From: a virus
IMG/VR virus record: IMGVR_UViG_3300025430_000017
Location: 1 to 64,000 of that record
Direction: 5' to 3' (one strand)
DNA length: 64,000 nucleotides
The notes below the pieces were generated by a model. That model saw only the letters and a list, made by a program, of their open reading frames with translations, was not told the origin of the DNA and ran no database searches. This document shows, in pieces, positions 48,410 to 60,436 of the stretch (the first letter of the stretch is position 1; the number at the start of each line of letters is the position of its first letter). Position numbers and translations under genes: made by a program.

Positions 48410-48961
48410 CTATTTGCCCTCCATTTTGTTATTAATCTTGTCCCAATCGATGATTTTCCATTGATTTTCTAAATATTTTTTCTTATCAGTACCAAAATCT
48501 GTCATAAAAGAGTGTTCCCACCAGTCTACAAGTATCACTATATCTTTTTTAATTTCGTGATTTGTAATAGTTTTAATCTCGCCACTTTTAGACAAATAAA
48601 CCCAACCGCTGCCTTGAATTTTCATTGCGGTTTCTTCAAATTTGTCTTTAAATTTATCAAAAGATTTAAAATGTTCGTCAATAAAATCTTTGATTGCACC
48701 GGTAGGAGTGTTTGAACTCTTAGGTGAACGAAACTGTGTAAAGTAAATGTCGTGCAGGAAAGCACCTGCTTCATTAAAGTCGGGATCGCCTTCGCCCTTG
48801 TTAAAACGGTCAACATAGCCCTTGTATAGTTGTCCGTAGTGATAATCTAATGCGGCCTTACTTAGACTACGACCTAGTGCATCTCGAGCATAAGGTAATG
48901 GAGTTTGTGTTAACTCTTTAGGAGTACGACCTTCATTAAGTGATTTGATAAAATTATACAT
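48410..48961 (-). CDS. Iron/manganese superoxide dismutase-like protein
   Basis: 183 residues from MYNFIKSLNEGRTPKELTQT. SOD landmarks follow: LPYARDALGRSLSKAALDYH and YGQLYKGYVDRF for the first helices, GAFLHDIYFTQFRSP for the second His ligand, GSGWVYLSKSGEIKTI for the mid-strand and VILVDWWEHSFMTDFG with Asp and His ligands, then YLENQWKIIDWDKIN. Some ligand positions are unusual, so enzymatic dismutation is likely but unproven. The N-terminus Phe-Ile-x-x-x-x-Glu resembles capsid-targeting leaders. A structured 100-base leader RNA (48975-49074) precedes it. Confidence 0.7.
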   Translation of the reverse strand: MYNFIKSLNEGRTPKELTQTPLPYARDALGRSLSKAALDYHYGQLYKGYVDRFNKGEGDPDFNEAGAFLHDIYFTQFRSPKSSNTPTGAIKDFIDEHFKSFDKFKDKFEETAMKIQGSGWVYLSKSGEIKTITNHEIKKDIVILVDWWEHSFMTDFGTDKKKYLENQWKIIDWDKINNKMEGK

Positions 48962-48974
48962 AGGTAAATATCTC

Positions 48975-49074
48975 GTCAAGTGGTTAACAGGGCATCCAAG
49001 GACCCCTAACTACGAACTTTCCCTGTCTTTGCGTAGTACAGCCAATGTGGTTTAAAGGTAAATTGGCACTTGAC
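48975..49074 (-). ncRNA. Candidate structured leader RNA: three-way junction with pseudoknot
   Basis: On the minus strand GTCAAGTG (49067-49074) pairs with CACTTGAC (48975-48982), closing two hairpins: CCAAT/ATTGG (49062-49066 with 49042-49046) and ACTACG/CGTAGT (49032-49037 with 49009-49014). The second loop contains ACAGGG (49021-49026), complementary to CCCTGT (48987-48992) downstream, giving a pseudoknot. The right arm of the closing stem ends just before the SOD-like start region. A late-like GCTAAATA lies about 20 bases upstream. Confidence 0.5.
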
Positions 49075-49143
49075 TTCATTTTTTGCATATCAGTATTTAG
49101 CGGCTGTTAAATAACTGTACATTTATATAAAGGAATCCATAAC

Positions 49144-49485
49144 ATGGAACTCATTATCGTTATTACTCTTGTTGCTCTTGCTGGTCTTGTTTATTATTAT
49201 AATCGTAAACCCAAAGCGGCTGCAACTACCACAGTTGAGGAAACTGCACCCTACAAGATCGAAGCACCTGCTCCTGTAGTTGAAGAAGCACCTGTACCTG
49301 CTACTGTAGTTGAAGAAGCACCTGTCGCCAAGAAGCCACGTAAGCCGCGTGCTCCTAAGGCTGCTCCTGCTCCAGTGGTTGCTGAAAAGCCAGTCAAGGC
49401 CACACGTAAACCACGTGCCGCTAAAGCTGAACCTGCTCCAGCTCCTGCTAAAAAGCCACGTGCTCCACGTTCAAAGAAGGTTTAA
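49144..49485 (+). CDS. Membrane-anchored Ala/Lys/Pro-rich (H1-like) protein
   Basis: 113 residues: one N-terminal TM (MELIIVITLVALAGLVYYYN) and a long A/K/P/R tail (KKPRKPRAPKAAPAPVVAEK-type repeats), similar in composition to histone H1-like proteins. The basic tail could bind nucleic acid or acidic envelope polymers at the inner membrane. AAAGGAATCC supplies the RBS. It is on the opposite strand to its neighbours, with a GTTAAATA element near 49107 as a possible late promoter. The 3' end overlaps the UvdE gene by 15 bases. Confidence 0.7.
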   Translation: MELIIVITLVALAGLVYYYNRKPKAAATTTVEETAPYKIEAPAPVVEEAPVPATVVEEAPVAKKPRKPRAPKAAPAPVVAEKPVKATRKPRAAKAEPAPAPAKKPRAPRSKKV

Positions 49486-50499
49486 TTCTCGAGCTTGATT
49501 GGCAAGGGCAAAACTAGCCAGGTTTTTACCTTTACTTTCGCACATGATGTCGAACTGATCGGTAAACCCCAAAGCCCAATCATTAACTGCGGCGTTCCAA
49601 TAGAAATCACTATGGGCCCGCAGTTTTTGTTTTTTGTAGCCGTTTTCTAAAAGTAAACTATGCTCGGGCTTTATAGTAGTGTCGTGGTCCACGAGACAAT
49701 CTTCGCGGCTGACAGAATAATGGCAAGTAGGGCGAACGCCACGCCAAGACTGAACCACCCTATCAACACGGGGGTCCATGGGGGAGAGGTATTCTCCTGT
49801 TTTAATCCAATGGTGATGAATGTCCAATACGATAGGAACGACATCAGCCAACTCAAGACAATCATCCAAACCATAACTAATCTCCTCGTTTTCAATAGTT
49901 AACATATTACGAGCCTCAGGGCTCAAGCGTTTCAACGCCTTGCGGATACCTTCAGGACCTTGGCGACCACTGATGTGTACATTGATCTTAAAATCCTGGA
50001 AAGTTTGACCATAGCCCATCCAACGAGCCATGTCTGTGTGATACTCAAATTCTTCTATGCTACGGTTGACGATATCGGGATTATCACTGGCCAGTACTGT
50101 AAACTGTCCAGGATGAAAGCTAAGGCGTACATTATTGAGCCTAGCACATTCGCCAATAGCGATAAAATGGCGAGCACAGTATTCCATAACATCACTACGG
50201 CGCCAAAAATAGCTCCAGCTAGATTCGGTGTAAGCAGGCAAAATATCACTGCTAATGCGAACCATGCGAAGATGCGGATCCAAACGGGATACACGTTCCA
50301 CCAAACGGCGAGTTGATTCGATATTTTGGACCATAATGTCCCAAAGTTTTTGTTCAGCCACTTCTCGTTTTTGGCGGTTGAGCCAGGAGATTGTGGTGCC
50401 TCCGGTGTTGTATTGTTTTGCATCATCTGTTGCCTTAATACCGTCTACTTGTTCTACGTGATCGATCCACTTACACGCAAAACCAATTCGTTTAATCAT
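49471..50499 (-). CDS. uvdE: UV damage endonuclease UvdE
   Basis: 342 residues. The TIM-barrel motifs are complete: [74 protein letters not shown] and [11 protein letters not shown] near the end. These supply the metal ligands (Glu, His, Asp) of the UVDE family, which nicks DNA 5' of UV photoproducts. A phage repair enzyme for sunlit water is a reasonable reading. It overlaps the epimerase gene by eight bases. Confidence 0.95.
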
Positions 50500-51454
50500 T
50501 GTTTACTTTCTGTGTCATAGTATTATTGTACACTACTTTGCGGAAATAGTCAATGGTCTTAACCAACCCCTTATCCAATTTGATTTTCGGTTCCCAATCT
50601 AATAATGCTTTAGCCAGTGTAATATCGGGCTTGCGTTGTTTAGGGTCATCTTTTGGCAAATCCATAAAAACAATTTTACTCTTACTCTTGGTTAATTTAA
50701 TGACCTTCTCAGCCAATTCCTTGATGGTAAATTCGCCAGGATTTCCAATGTTGACAGGTTCGTGATAATCGCTATGCATCAACAACATCATACCATCTAA
50801 AAGGTCTTCAAAATAACAGAAACTACGAGTTTGGTCACCTTCTCCGTAAATGGTAATGTCTTCACCACGTAATGCTTGTACAATAAAGTTACTGACTACA
50901 CGTCCATCACCTTCAGCCATCTTTGGACCATAGGTGTTGAAGATACGCATGATTTTAGTATCAACACCATGTTTACGATGGTAGTCCATAAACAGAGTTT
51001 CTGCGGCACGTTTGCCTTCATCGTAGCAACTGCGAATGCCGATTGGGTTTACATTGCCCCAATAACCTTCGGGCTGTGGATGTACGGCGGGATCGCCATA
51101 ACACTCGCTAGTACTGGCCTGTAGGATCTTGGCACCGGTTCGTTTAGCCAACCCCAGCATATTGAACGCACCGATAACAGATGTTTTCATAGTTTGAATT
51201 GGATCGTGCTGATAATGTTGTGGACTTGCAGGACAGGCAAGATTATAAATCTCATCTACTTCGACATAAAGCGGAATACAAATATCCTGCCGAATAACTT
51301 CAAAGTTTGGAAACTTGAGTAAATGTTCAATGTTTTTTTTACTACCTGTAAAATAGTTGTCAACACATAGAACATGATGGCCTTGTTTTACTAATCGTTC
51401 ACAGAGATGTGATCCAAGAAAGCCAGCACCGCCAGTTACTAATATCTTTTTCAT
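50492..51454 (-). CDS. UDP-glucuronate decarboxylase (UDP-xylose synthase)-like epimerase
   Basis: 320 residues. NAD-binding [20 protein letters not shown] at the N-terminus, [20 protein letters not shown] and [20 protein letters not shown] in the middle, and catalytic [12 protein letters not shown] (Tyr-x-x-x-Lys) with a preceding Ser ([10 protein letters not shown]). The CPASPxHYQxxP phrase is characteristic of UDP-xylose synthases. It would turn UDP-glucuronate into UDP-xylose, perhaps for glycosylation of DNA, fibres or host envelope. It sits between UvdE and small membrane genes. Confidence 0.9.
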
Positions 51455-51838: not shown

Positions 51839-52345
51839 TTACTCAAAACCTTCAAATAAGTCCTCATTCCATTCTCTATGACCTTCTCTAAAAGCCATAT
51901 TGCTCTGAGTCTCACGAACTTCTACACGATAGCACCACAAACGCTCGGCTTCGCCTGGTCCCCACATATCGGGAATATATACGGCATTGATATATTTGTA
52001 TAACATATCGGCCAACCCCTCGCAGCCAAGTTTAGGCAAAATTGTAAGTTTGGCCATTTTCTTTTCTTGTAGTAGTTTATATACTTCAAGATGGGGATCA
52101 TCGGAACTGACCAGAAGGGTATGATCGAATTTGTCCTCCAAAAAGCGTTTAAGTTCTTTAAGGCCGCCGTAGTCAGCAGCCCAATTGCGAGCATCTAAAT
52201 CATTAGTACCAAAGTAAAACTTCATACTAAATGAATATCCGTGAATAGTATTACAGTGGCTATCCGCACGCCACTGACGATATGCACATGGAAAGGCATC
52301 GACATATTCCTTTGTGCTTGTATATTTGTATACGACTGGTTGCAT
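51839..52345 (-). CDS. queD: 6-carboxytetrahydropterin synthase QueD
   Basis: 168 residues. CAYRQWRADSHCNTIHGYSF supplies the Cys and the two His of the zinc/catalytic site (C...HGYS), ARNWAADYGGLKELKRFLED the DFxxLK helix, FDHTLLVSSDDPHLEVYKLL the DHxxLN-type segment and the acidic C-terminus YRVEVRETQSNMAFRE the Glu that binds the pterin. The enzyme converts dihydroneopterin triphosphate to carboxytetrahydropterin in the preQ0 route, matching the DpdA-like gene at 1589-3160. A promoter TTTACA-17-TATTAT lies upstream. Confidence 0.85.
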   Translation of the reverse strand: MQPVVYKYTSTKEYVDAFPCAYRQWRADSHCNTIHGYSFSMKFYFGTNDLDARNWAADYGGLKELKRFLEDKFDHTLLVSSDDPHLEVYKLLQEKKMAKLTILPKLGCEGLADMLYKYINAVYIPDMWGPGEAERLWCYRVEVRETQSNMAFREGHREWNEDLFEGFE

Positions 52346-58430: not shown

Positions 58431-58982
58431 TTGAGAATAGCTCTAAGCCAAAGAATTATCAAGTTTAGAGGCCGAGCGTATGATTCAATCGAGCACGGGT
58501 GGTACTCGTACTTGAAAGAGCATACGCTCTTTTTTGTCCCTAACAGATTGGATCAAGATTTCACAGCCATTGCTGATGAAGTTGATTGTTTTATTATCAC
58601 AGGCGGCGACGACCGTTTGATAAGACGCACAACAGAATTAAAACTTGCAACTCAAATGATGTTGCATAATAAACCTATATTAGGTGTTTGCCATGGATGT
58701 TTTTTATTAACAGATACCCTGGGAGGCACCGTGCTAAAGAAAGCCGGACATAGTGGTGGCATTACACACGATGTGAACTATAAAGGTCAAAAGCATCAGG
58801 TAAACAGTTTTCACGGATTAAACATCAAACTGCCACAACACAGTGCTACAGTATTGGCCACAGATGATGATGGCGATTGCGAAGCGTGGATAGATGGCAA
58901 TGTTGCCGGAGTTGTTTGGCATCCTGAAAGAACCAAGGACCACTGGCTTCCCGATGAAATACAAAACTTAATGAAACTATAA
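58431..58982 (+). CDS. Class I glutamine amidotransferase-like protein
   Basis: 183 residues from a TTG (58431), one base after the upstream stop, with GGTGG nearby. Catalytic Cys in ILGVCHGCFLLTDTLGG and His/Glu in GVVWHPERTKDHW match the GATase1 triad; CFIITGGDD is the oxyanion strand. It would release ammonia from glutamine (or hydrolyse a gamma-glutamyl conjugate) for a partner. No synthetase partner is visible in this cluster, though the ferritin-like gene precedes it. Its stop overlaps the TctA start. Confidence 0.8.
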   Translation: MRIALSQRIIKFRGRAYDSIEHGWYSYLKEHTLFFVPNRLDQDFTAIADEVDCFIITGGDDRLIRRTTELKLATQMMLHNKPILGVCHGCFLLTDTLGGTVLKKAGHSGGITHDVNYKGQKHQVNSFHGLNIKLPQHSATVLATDDDGDCEAWIDGNVAGVVWHPERTKDHWLPDEIQNLMKL

Positions 58983-60436
58983 TGGACTATGTTCACTATC
59001 TGCCATATTTGCTAGTTGGAACATTATATGGTTTTATTTTTGGTATTATACCTATCGCAGGTGCAACAACAGCATTACTAACTGTTTATGCTTTTATGGA
59101 TTACTTTAGAGCTGATCCATATTCCCTAGTAGTATTCACTACTTCGATAATTATTTCGTCTAGCGTGGGAGATTTGTTTTCTAGTGTAGTCATGAATATA
59201 CCGGGCGGAGGTGGCAGTGCCGCCACAATGGTTGATGGATTCCCACTAGCAAAGCGTGGTGAAGGTGCAAGGGCGTTGAGTGCCAGCATCTTTAGTGCCT
59301 GCGGACAAGGCCTATTTTGGGGTATATTGGTATTTGCATTTCTTCCTTACTATGCCAATGTTGTTACATATTTTGGCATACCTGAAATGTTATGTTTCTT
59401 ATTGCTAGCCTTGACCACAGTGACCTTTGTTAATAACGAATACTGGGCAAGAGGATTGTTTGGTGTATTTTTAGGAATATTCTTAGGACTGGTAGGAACC
59501 AATCCAGTTACCAATGCTGAACGATTTACTGGAGGTTGGTTTTATCTTGCTCATGGTATACAGATATTGCCACTAATGTCGGGATTGTTAGCAATGCCTG
59601 AAATATTAGAATCCTTGTTCGATAAAGCATCATATACACCAGTGTCTAATAATATTGTTAAACAAATGTGGCAAGGTGCAAAGGATGCTTGGCAATATCG
59701 TTGGGATAGTATGCGTTCGGGATTGATCGGTGGATTCATTGGCTTGTTACCCGGTGTAGGTGGTGCAGTTGTTGATTGGTTAGCGTATAGTCAAACAGTG
59801 GCCGCTGGTAAAAATGATCTAGTTAAGTTCGGTGAAGGAAATATAAGAGGTGTTGTTGGTGCTGAAGGTGCTAACATGGCACAAAAATCTACAGCATATA
59901 TTCCTACTATCTTGTTTGGTGTTCCCGCAGCACCATTCGAAGTCATTGTCATGAGTCTGTTTATGTATGTTGGATTAGAAATGGGTAGTCCGACTCTACT
60001 TGCTGATCCCGTATTCTTTCATGCTTTGAACTATAGTTTTATATTAAGTCTGTTGTTGACATTTTTAATAAGTCTATGGTTTGTTCGTTGGGCCACGATG
60101 CTTACCCGTGTGCCAGTAATGTATTATTTTATTCCGTTGATTATTTTAATATTTTGGAGTTGCGCCGAATATACAGGTGGTTGGGAAGATTATGCTATGT
60201 TAATAGGCTGTACGGTGCTAGGCATGGTTCTAAGATATTTTAAGATCAGCAGAGCCTGTGTATTAATAGGATTTGTACTAAGCCCGAGGATTGAACTAGT
60301 GGGTGAACAGTTCTTTACCATTTATCAAATCGACGAACTACTACATCATCCTATATCCGTTGGATTATTAGTTGCTACATTGATATCTATTGTTTACGGA
60401 ATATTTTTTAGCAAAACAAAAATTAACTATCATTAA
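58982..60436 (+). CDS. tctA: Tripartite tricarboxylate transporter permease TctA
   Basis: 484 residues with about ten hydrophobic helices. The TctA signature SSVVMNIPGGGGSAATMVDG followed by FPLAKRGEGARALSASIFSA is intact, as is the second repeat GGFIGLLPGVGGAVVDWLAY. It would be the large permease of a TTT system, moving tricarboxylates or related small acids with a sodium or proton gradient. The TctC-like binding protein follows after nine bases. No TctB gene is present between them, so host TctB would be needed or the system works without it. An unusual phage gene. Confidence 0.9.
   Translation: MDYVHYLPYLLVGTLYGFIFGIIPIAGATTALLTVYAFMDYFRADPYSLVVFTTSIIISSSVGDLFSSVVMNIPGGGGSAATMVDGFPLAKRGEGARALSASIFSACGQGLFWGILVFAFLPYYANVVTYFGIPEMLCFLLLALTTVTFVNNEYWARGLFGVFLGIFLGLVGTNPVTNAERFTGGWFYLAHGIQILPLMSGLLAMPEILESLFDKASYTPVSNNIVKQMWQGAKDAWQYRWDSMRSGLIGGFIGLLPGVGGAVVDWLAYSQTVAAGKNDLVKFGEGNIRGVVGAEGANMAQKSTAYIPTILFGVPAAPFEVIVMSLFMYVGLEMGSPTLLADPVFFHALNYSFILSLLLTFLISLWFVRWATMLTRVPVMYYFIPLIILIFWSCAEYTGGWEDYAMLIGCTVLGMVLRYFKISRACVLIGFVLSPRIELVGEQFFTIYQIDELLHHPISVGLLVATLISIVYGIFFSKTKINYH

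Follow-up and report, generated by a model that had tools for sequence, protein, structure and literature searches.

A conserved pseudoknotted RNA, probably standalone and distantly related to bacterial Atu_At1, adjoins superoxide dismutase genes in phage contigs

Introduction

Atu_At1 (Rfam family RF02496) is a sparsely described small RNA of Rhizobiales, reportedly first described in an RNA-seq report on Agrobacterium. The literature covered here, which included few subscription papers, held no paper on its function or on the phage RNA described below, and a word search did not find the name Atu_At1 in PMC4201532 and PMC3738593. RF02496-like DNA was present in 199 plasmid records, mostly of Rhizobiales, and a sample of 398 genomes from one phylum contained the family in 14. 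The annotated plasmid neighbours of the cellular RNA include ligD, xth, Mn catalase and Hsp20 genes, the neighbour varying from locus to locus. When searched with a loose expression, 13 of 24 cellular loci had a GGAAC-like motif with (G/A)TT whose start lies 30 to 52 nt upstream of the RNA. It is close to GGAAC-N17-20-GTT, given in PMC6599016 as the motif of EcfG, the alphaproteobacterial general-stress sigma factor.

GsrN, a small RNA controlled by EcfG, protects Caulobacter from peroxide via pairing with the leader of katG mRNA, according to PMC5869019. As described there, GsrN resembles the Atu_At1-like RNAs in being a small RNA of about 100 nt under a general-stress sigma factor, and it targets catalase/peroxidase expression; it differs, in a comparison by description only, in having a C-rich 5′ loop as its acting part and a 3′ terminator hairpin. 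Structured RNAs are also found in T4-like phages, where the cyanophage leader RNAs manA (RF01745) and wcaG (RF01761) sit in the 5′ UTRs of metabolic genes (PMC2864571).

Here we analyse a window of 64,000 nucleotides (positions 1 to 64,000 of the IMG/VR virus record IMGVR_UViG_3300025430_000017), in which an initial annotation made from the sequence alone had placed a structured leader RNA before a gene resembling superoxide dismutase (SOD), with manA and wcaG as the nearest idea. That suggestion was not borne out: neither family matched at the element, and the only significant Rfam match was RF02496, reached through a diverged relative. The annotation had likewise found no match to preQ1, SAM, glnA or THF, and here our searches agree with it.

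Results

Conserved structure

The element is a structured noncoding RNA of about 100 nt at positions 48975-49074 on the + strand (element bases 1-100), identified by a covariance model, by structure counts and by its match to a model of the cellular RNAs. Its density of complementarity had been taken as suggestive of a riboswitch or translational control element. Folding of the single sequence gave no signal, as neither strand was more stable than its shuffled versions (z −0.28 and −0.07, the pseudoknot being uncounted), and the complementarity seen by eye is thus insignificant alone. Because the single sequence was unconvincing and no Rfam match was obtained at gathering scores, relatives were compared, and it is on this comparative evidence that the reality of the structure rests.

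In an alignment of 59 distinct copies, 94.6% of the cells in 31 pairs were paired. Compensatory changes in homologous sequences, the absence of which had been named as the finding that would speak against the structure, were present: 24 of the 31 pairs showed double changes, with 218 double-changed cells as compared to 57.3 when the alignment was shuffled and no more than 33 when it was slid. The pairing of three helices, P1, S1 and S2, was kept by double changes first in 45 and then in 59 distinct copies. P1 (48975-48982 with 49067-49074) is the 8-bp closing stem already seen in the window; double changes affected all eight of its pairs and 96.2% of its cells were paired. The 6-bp pseudoknot of the initial annotation also held, as a helix S1 of 6-7 bp (48986-48992 with 49021-49027; 98.1% of cells paired), in which a C-G pair is replaced by U-A in 23 of the 59 copies. 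Only one of the two proposed hairpins survived the comparison. The CUACG/CGUAG hairpin, S2 (49010-49014 with 49032-49036), is conserved, with double changes in five of five pairs and 86.8% of cells paired. The GCCAAU/AUUGGC hairpin was rejected, since none of its pairs showed a double change and one was broken in 17 of 45 copies.

The bases of the rejected hairpin are used otherwise. They form a long-range helix, P5 (48996-48999 with 49063-49066; element bases 22-25/89-92), and a short hairpin, P4 (49041-49051). In P5 all 236 of 236 cells (100%) were paired, and an A-U pair is replaced by G-C in 24 of the 59 copies. P4 reads GCC-AAUGU-GGU, a version with GGC also being given, and pairs element bases 67-69 with 75-77; 98.6% of its cells were paired, and relatives have GCU/AGC, GUC/GAC or AAGC/GCUU at this place. 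A further helix, P6 (49004-49006 with 49056-49058; element bases 30-32/82-84), is likely but unproved: its first two C-G pairs are invariant and its third pair is uncertain, being a standard pair of one of five types in 30 of the 59 copies and unpaired, mostly C-A, in the other 29. The alignment (A2) was fitted to a covariance model (R1) whose structure comprised P1, P5, S2 and P4, without S1 or P6. The counts for S1 are for this reason the least biased.

The most diverged copy, at locus L355, had P1, S1, S2 and P4 wholly rewritten with the pairing intact as judged by eye, and R1, built without this copy, detected it at E 1.3e-11. Several unpaired bases are conserved as well, namely GGA before P6, UUU before the 3′ strand of S1, ACA before P4 and AA before the 3′ strand of P5. 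They were invariant in one comparison and nearly so in another, which suggests that they form a binding core for a protein, an RNA or a small molecule. The mean identity of the element was 0.766, as compared to 0.682 for the SOD coding DNA and 0.484 for SOD third codon positions (595 pairs, 35 loci).

Strand and promoter motif

The strand of the RNA can be read from its G-U pairs, because a G-U pair becomes A-C on the other strand. P1 contained 29 G-U cells versus 1 A-C cell on the + strand of the window (59 copies), and all helices other than P6 together contained 73 versus 10. P6 was the exception, with 26 A-C and 6 G-U cells. Concomitantly, TAAATA was found on the + strand 2-5 nt upstream of the element in all 59 distinct copies, as part of GGTAAATA at 48963-48970 in the window; its background frequency is 0.00054 per base and strand, and an equivalent motif past the other end of the element was found in only 4 of the 59. 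From the G-U counts and the promoter motif we conclude that the RNA is encoded on the + strand, opposite to SOD (48410-48961, −; Pfam Sod_Fe_C, 3.4e-23), its divergent neighbour.

The distance from TAAATA to the first stable pair of P1 was nearly fixed (4 nt in 48 copies, 5 nt in 10 and 6 nt in one). In five contigs, the promoter motif and the RNA were jointly flipped relative to SOD, with P1 shorter by 1-2 bp and this spacing unchanged; the SOD tree groups the five in a single clade (support 100/94) that is nested among divergent loci. Since both were flipped together, the promoter motif goes with the RNA rather than with SOD. TAAATA is the late-promoter motif of T4-type phages. This reading is supported by the [ACGT]ATAAATA motifs in the window, most of which lie shortly upstream of gene starts when read against the ORF list, and by proteins of the gp55 family (late sigma) in 6 of 11 records and in 2 of 4 of a second set. 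The motif, its spacing and the gp55 homologues together predict that transcription starts at or close to 48975, and the 3′ end of the RNA would lie near 49074.

Many phage SOD genes carry a TAAATA of their own just 4-5 nt ahead of the ATG (for instance at L016, L018 and L022), and the resulting mRNAs would be leaderless. This arrangement was seen in 35 of 87 distinct rows that were divergent or lacked the RNA, 20 of the 87 being without an ATG start.

Genomic neighbours

Beyond the 3′ end of the RNA, the window contains a TAAATA in the SOD direction (49094-49099, −), a likely SOD promoter from which the transcript would cross the RNA antisense. A further TAAATA (49108-49113, +) is the likely promoter of the gene downstream of the RNA (49144-49485, +), which encodes a lysine-rich protein of 113 aa with no Pfam match. 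This protein is rich in lysine, proline and alanine and has an N-terminal hydrophobic stretch, and many contigs have a similar gene after the RNA. No tRNA or tmRNA was found in the window.

A long frame on the opposite strand ended at most 7 nt from the 3′ end of the RNA in 8 of 46 loci, and likewise at L355. The L355 record (331,570 bases, perhaps a fragment) contained no SOD detectable with the SOD protein or with Pfam Sod_Fe_C, the same search being positive for G003. From these opposite-strand gene ends and from the presence of the RNA in a contig without detected SOD, it follows that SOD is a neighbour of the RNA and not its cis partner. A stretch of TTTT was found at most 20 nt past the RNA in 24 of the 46 loci, versus a background of 11.6%, and in 32 of the 59 distinct copies; this excess is a weak sign of termination, and no conserved terminator was found after the RNA in either set. 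Taken together, the RNA is probably standalone and not a leader of SOD. In five loci (L090, L120, L131, L232 and L355, the last in the contig without SOD), the RNA is abutted by a convergent gene whose product ends in MK(A/S)G(R/K)(A/S)KK...

Distribution in viruses

A search for SOD in viral contigs gave 80 loci, in which the element was present on the divergent strand in 18, absent in 58 and undecidable near a contig end in 4. Further loci were gathered by DNA patterns. Of 97 viral loci selected by pattern, 93 were matched by the covariance model at E ≤ 0.01, a figure that is not a prevalence, given this selection, and that is a consistency check for those loci from which the model was partly built. 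Searches of whole records found at most one good copy per record, with 17 of 24 and 6 of 28 records positive; one record (G026) held only a cut copy, at the contig end. Because nearly all element-free records had been included for holding a SOD gene, SOD without the RNA is common.

No convincing copy was detected in phage T4, Vibrio phage 2.275.O, MW462191, Pseudomonas phage 30-3, phiM12, Atu_ph07 and Cr30 (best E 0.56 and 3.3), among them three cultured alphaproteobacterial phages. A blastn search of the element against phage records and one of L355 against plasmids returned nothing relevant. The P4/P5 pattern gave seven matches in cellular genome contigs, none of them real by the covariance model (E < 1); one, in Limnobacter, sits inside a long frame that we take to be SulP-like. 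Wide pattern scans likewise gave mostly chance matches, and among 152 loci searched with the model only L232 was real.

Kinship with Atu_At1

A permissive Rfam scan of L355 gave RF02496 as the sole match, over its full length, at 37.6 bits (E 4.8e-5, and 3.4e-5 in 141 bases), short of the gathering cut-off of 60 bits. The same kind of scan gave no match in the window, at L012 or at five other diverged loci. We then compared the two groups of RNAs. In an alignment of 24 cellular copies, 92.5% of cells were paired, double changes affected 22 of 30 pairs, and there were 114 double-changed cells versus 34.2. The pseudoknot S1, which the Rfam structure line does not contain, was present in these copies as AACCGG pairing with CCGGUU, a few of them having compensated versions.

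A model built on the 24 cellular RNAs alone, and thus free of phage sequence, gave 18 matches at E ≤ 10 in 455,615 bases from 60 phage loci. Each of the 18 covered a phage element over its whole length and in the correct orientation, and together they represent 18 of the 59 element-bearing loci. Single E values were 1.1e-5 for L355, 0.017 and 0.022 for two others and at least 0.05 for the remainder; in the window, the best match was 48971-49074 (+), at 9.4 bits (E 0.039 in 601 bases). Conversely, a phage-only model searched against seven plasmid loci gave three matches, all at the RF02496 site (E 0.0018, 0.11 and 1.1). With stricter filters, it gave none at E ≤ 0.1 when run on 61 genomes of Rhizobiaceae, including three with RF02496, and this blank indicates a large sequence distance.

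The order P1-S1-P5-internal loop-P6-S2-P4 and the pairing of these parts are the same in cellular and phage copies, which also share GUCAA before S1, a U-run before and UUUC after the 3′ strand of S1, and GCCAA in P4. They differ in P5 and P6, which are shorter in the phage RNA (4+3 pairs versus 6+4), and in the upstream motif, which is of the late-phage type in the phage copies and of the EcfG type in the cellular ones. Common descent of the phage and RF02496 RNAs, with large divergence, is well supported by these sequence comparisons, and the scores below the Rfam cut-off mark the phage copies as a diverged branch.

Discussion

The data show that the + strand encodes a conserved, structured RNA that has its own promoter motif. 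The reading that we favour, with a probability of roughly two in three, is that 48975-49074 (+) is a standalone phage-borne RNA gene, a diverged branch of Atu_At1, expressed late and acting in trans. That the RNA works independently is made probable by its own late promoter motif and by its distant kinship to an RNA of soil bacteria; the near-constant placing of the RNA beside SOD is a point against it.

The nature of the neighbours bears on the unlikely case that the RNA is a cis leader of whichever gene follows on its own strand, that is, of the lysine-rich gene in the window, of SOD in the flipped clade and of DNA-repair genes in bacteria. By a crude ORF caller, 26 of 46 phage loci had a co-directional next ORF, which in five of them was SOD at 7-8 nt; in bacteria, the RNA is followed after about 55 nt by the start of ligD (Agrobacterium fabrum pAt and A. 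vitis) and after 22 nt by that of xth (Sinorhizobium sp. B11). However, the next ORF lay on the opposite strand in the other 20 loci (in L039 and L119 it looks spurious), the lysine-rich gene has its own TAAATA, and the downstream genes have no common function. Nor is any expression platform conserved beyond P1, and terminator-like hairpins with T-runs were seen by eye after the RNA in the cellular loci L380 and L388.

The remaining readings tie the element to the SOD strand. An antisense regulator of SOD mRNA, which we hold to be quite improbable, would find a fully complementary 5′ UTR wherever SOD is read from the far promoter, and 17 of 46 loci, including the one in the window, do have a TAAATA in the SOD direction at most 60 nt beyond the 3′ end of the RNA. 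Such complementarity is, however, impossible in the five flipped loci, pairing needs no conserved pseudoknot, and the RNA is present in the L355 record, where SOD was not detected. Furthermore, of 42 distinct rows with a divergent SOD, 17 have a TAAATA 4-7 nt ahead of the start of the gene, and an mRNA begun there would miss the RNA. The same 17 rows, with an SOD-direction promoter motif between element and gene, argue against the cis-regulatory part of the initial annotation, a riboswitch or translational leader on the − strand ahead of SOD. Although 11-26 nt separate the element from the start of SOD in divergent loci and most stems are common to complementary strands, the G-U cells would turn into A-C there (29 versus 1 in P1) and the ever-present adjoining promoter motif sits on the other strand. 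The RNA is SOD-strand upstream only in the five flipped loci. We thus regard this leader as very improbable; what stands of the proposal is the structured RNA with its pseudoknot. A small protein, encoded by a 31-codon frame (MKSSANL...) overlapping the element on the − strand, has practically no chance of being the explanation: the frame is open in near relatives of 96-100% identity, but stops or frame changes occur at L008, L010, L011, L012, L016 and L049, where the pairs are kept, and the broken frame refutes it.

For the standalone trans-acting RNA, a plausible course can be outlined. As suggested by the motif, its spacing and the gp55 homologues, host RNA polymerase with a gp55-type late sigma factor of the phage would start from TAAATA at the first bases of P1. 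The transcript would then adopt the fold shown by covariation, with P1 joining its ends, an H-type pseudoknot of S1 and S2, a two-part P5/P6 helix with the conserved internal loop, and the hairpin P4. Late in infection it would act in trans, probably by offering its conserved unpaired core bases to a host protein or RNA. The phage RNA might in this way provide, at the command of the phage, a function that in bacteria comes from their own version of the RNA under the general-stress sigma factor. That the RNA is free, is expressed late, acts in trans and takes part in stress physiology are all suggestions drawn from sequence comparison. We put forward, tentatively and as a rather doubtful extension, that large T4-like phages took over a general-stress small RNA of bacteria and swapped its stress-sigma promoter for a late one, in order to run or silence the stress programme of the host at the end of infection, via a double-pseudoknotted core that binds a protein or ligand and not by base-pairing.

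The comparison gives RF02496 a well-supported pseudoknotted structure and many diverged phage members, and the cellular and phage members jointly reveal which part the RNA cannot do without, namely an unusual core of unpaired bases that do not vary. A putative phage late gene is thereby linked to a bacterial stress small RNA, and the function of both becomes testable in laboratory hosts. The locus also illustrates that what looks to the eye like a leader can be an independent RNA from the opposite strand.

Near SOD, the window contains on the − strand genes for a UvdE-type UV endonuclease (49471-50499) and a sugar epimerase/dehydratase (50492-51454) and for a 6-pyruvoyl tetrahydropterin synthase (51839-52345), which together make up DNA-repair and metabolic cargo. 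Farther along, this phage contig encodes a TctA-type subunit of a tripartite tricarboxylate transporter (58982-60436, +; Pfam 1.4e-83). In another phage contig, a sub-threshold match to wcaG RNA (L107:3622-3725, −; 26.2 bits, cut-off 42) lies away from the element.
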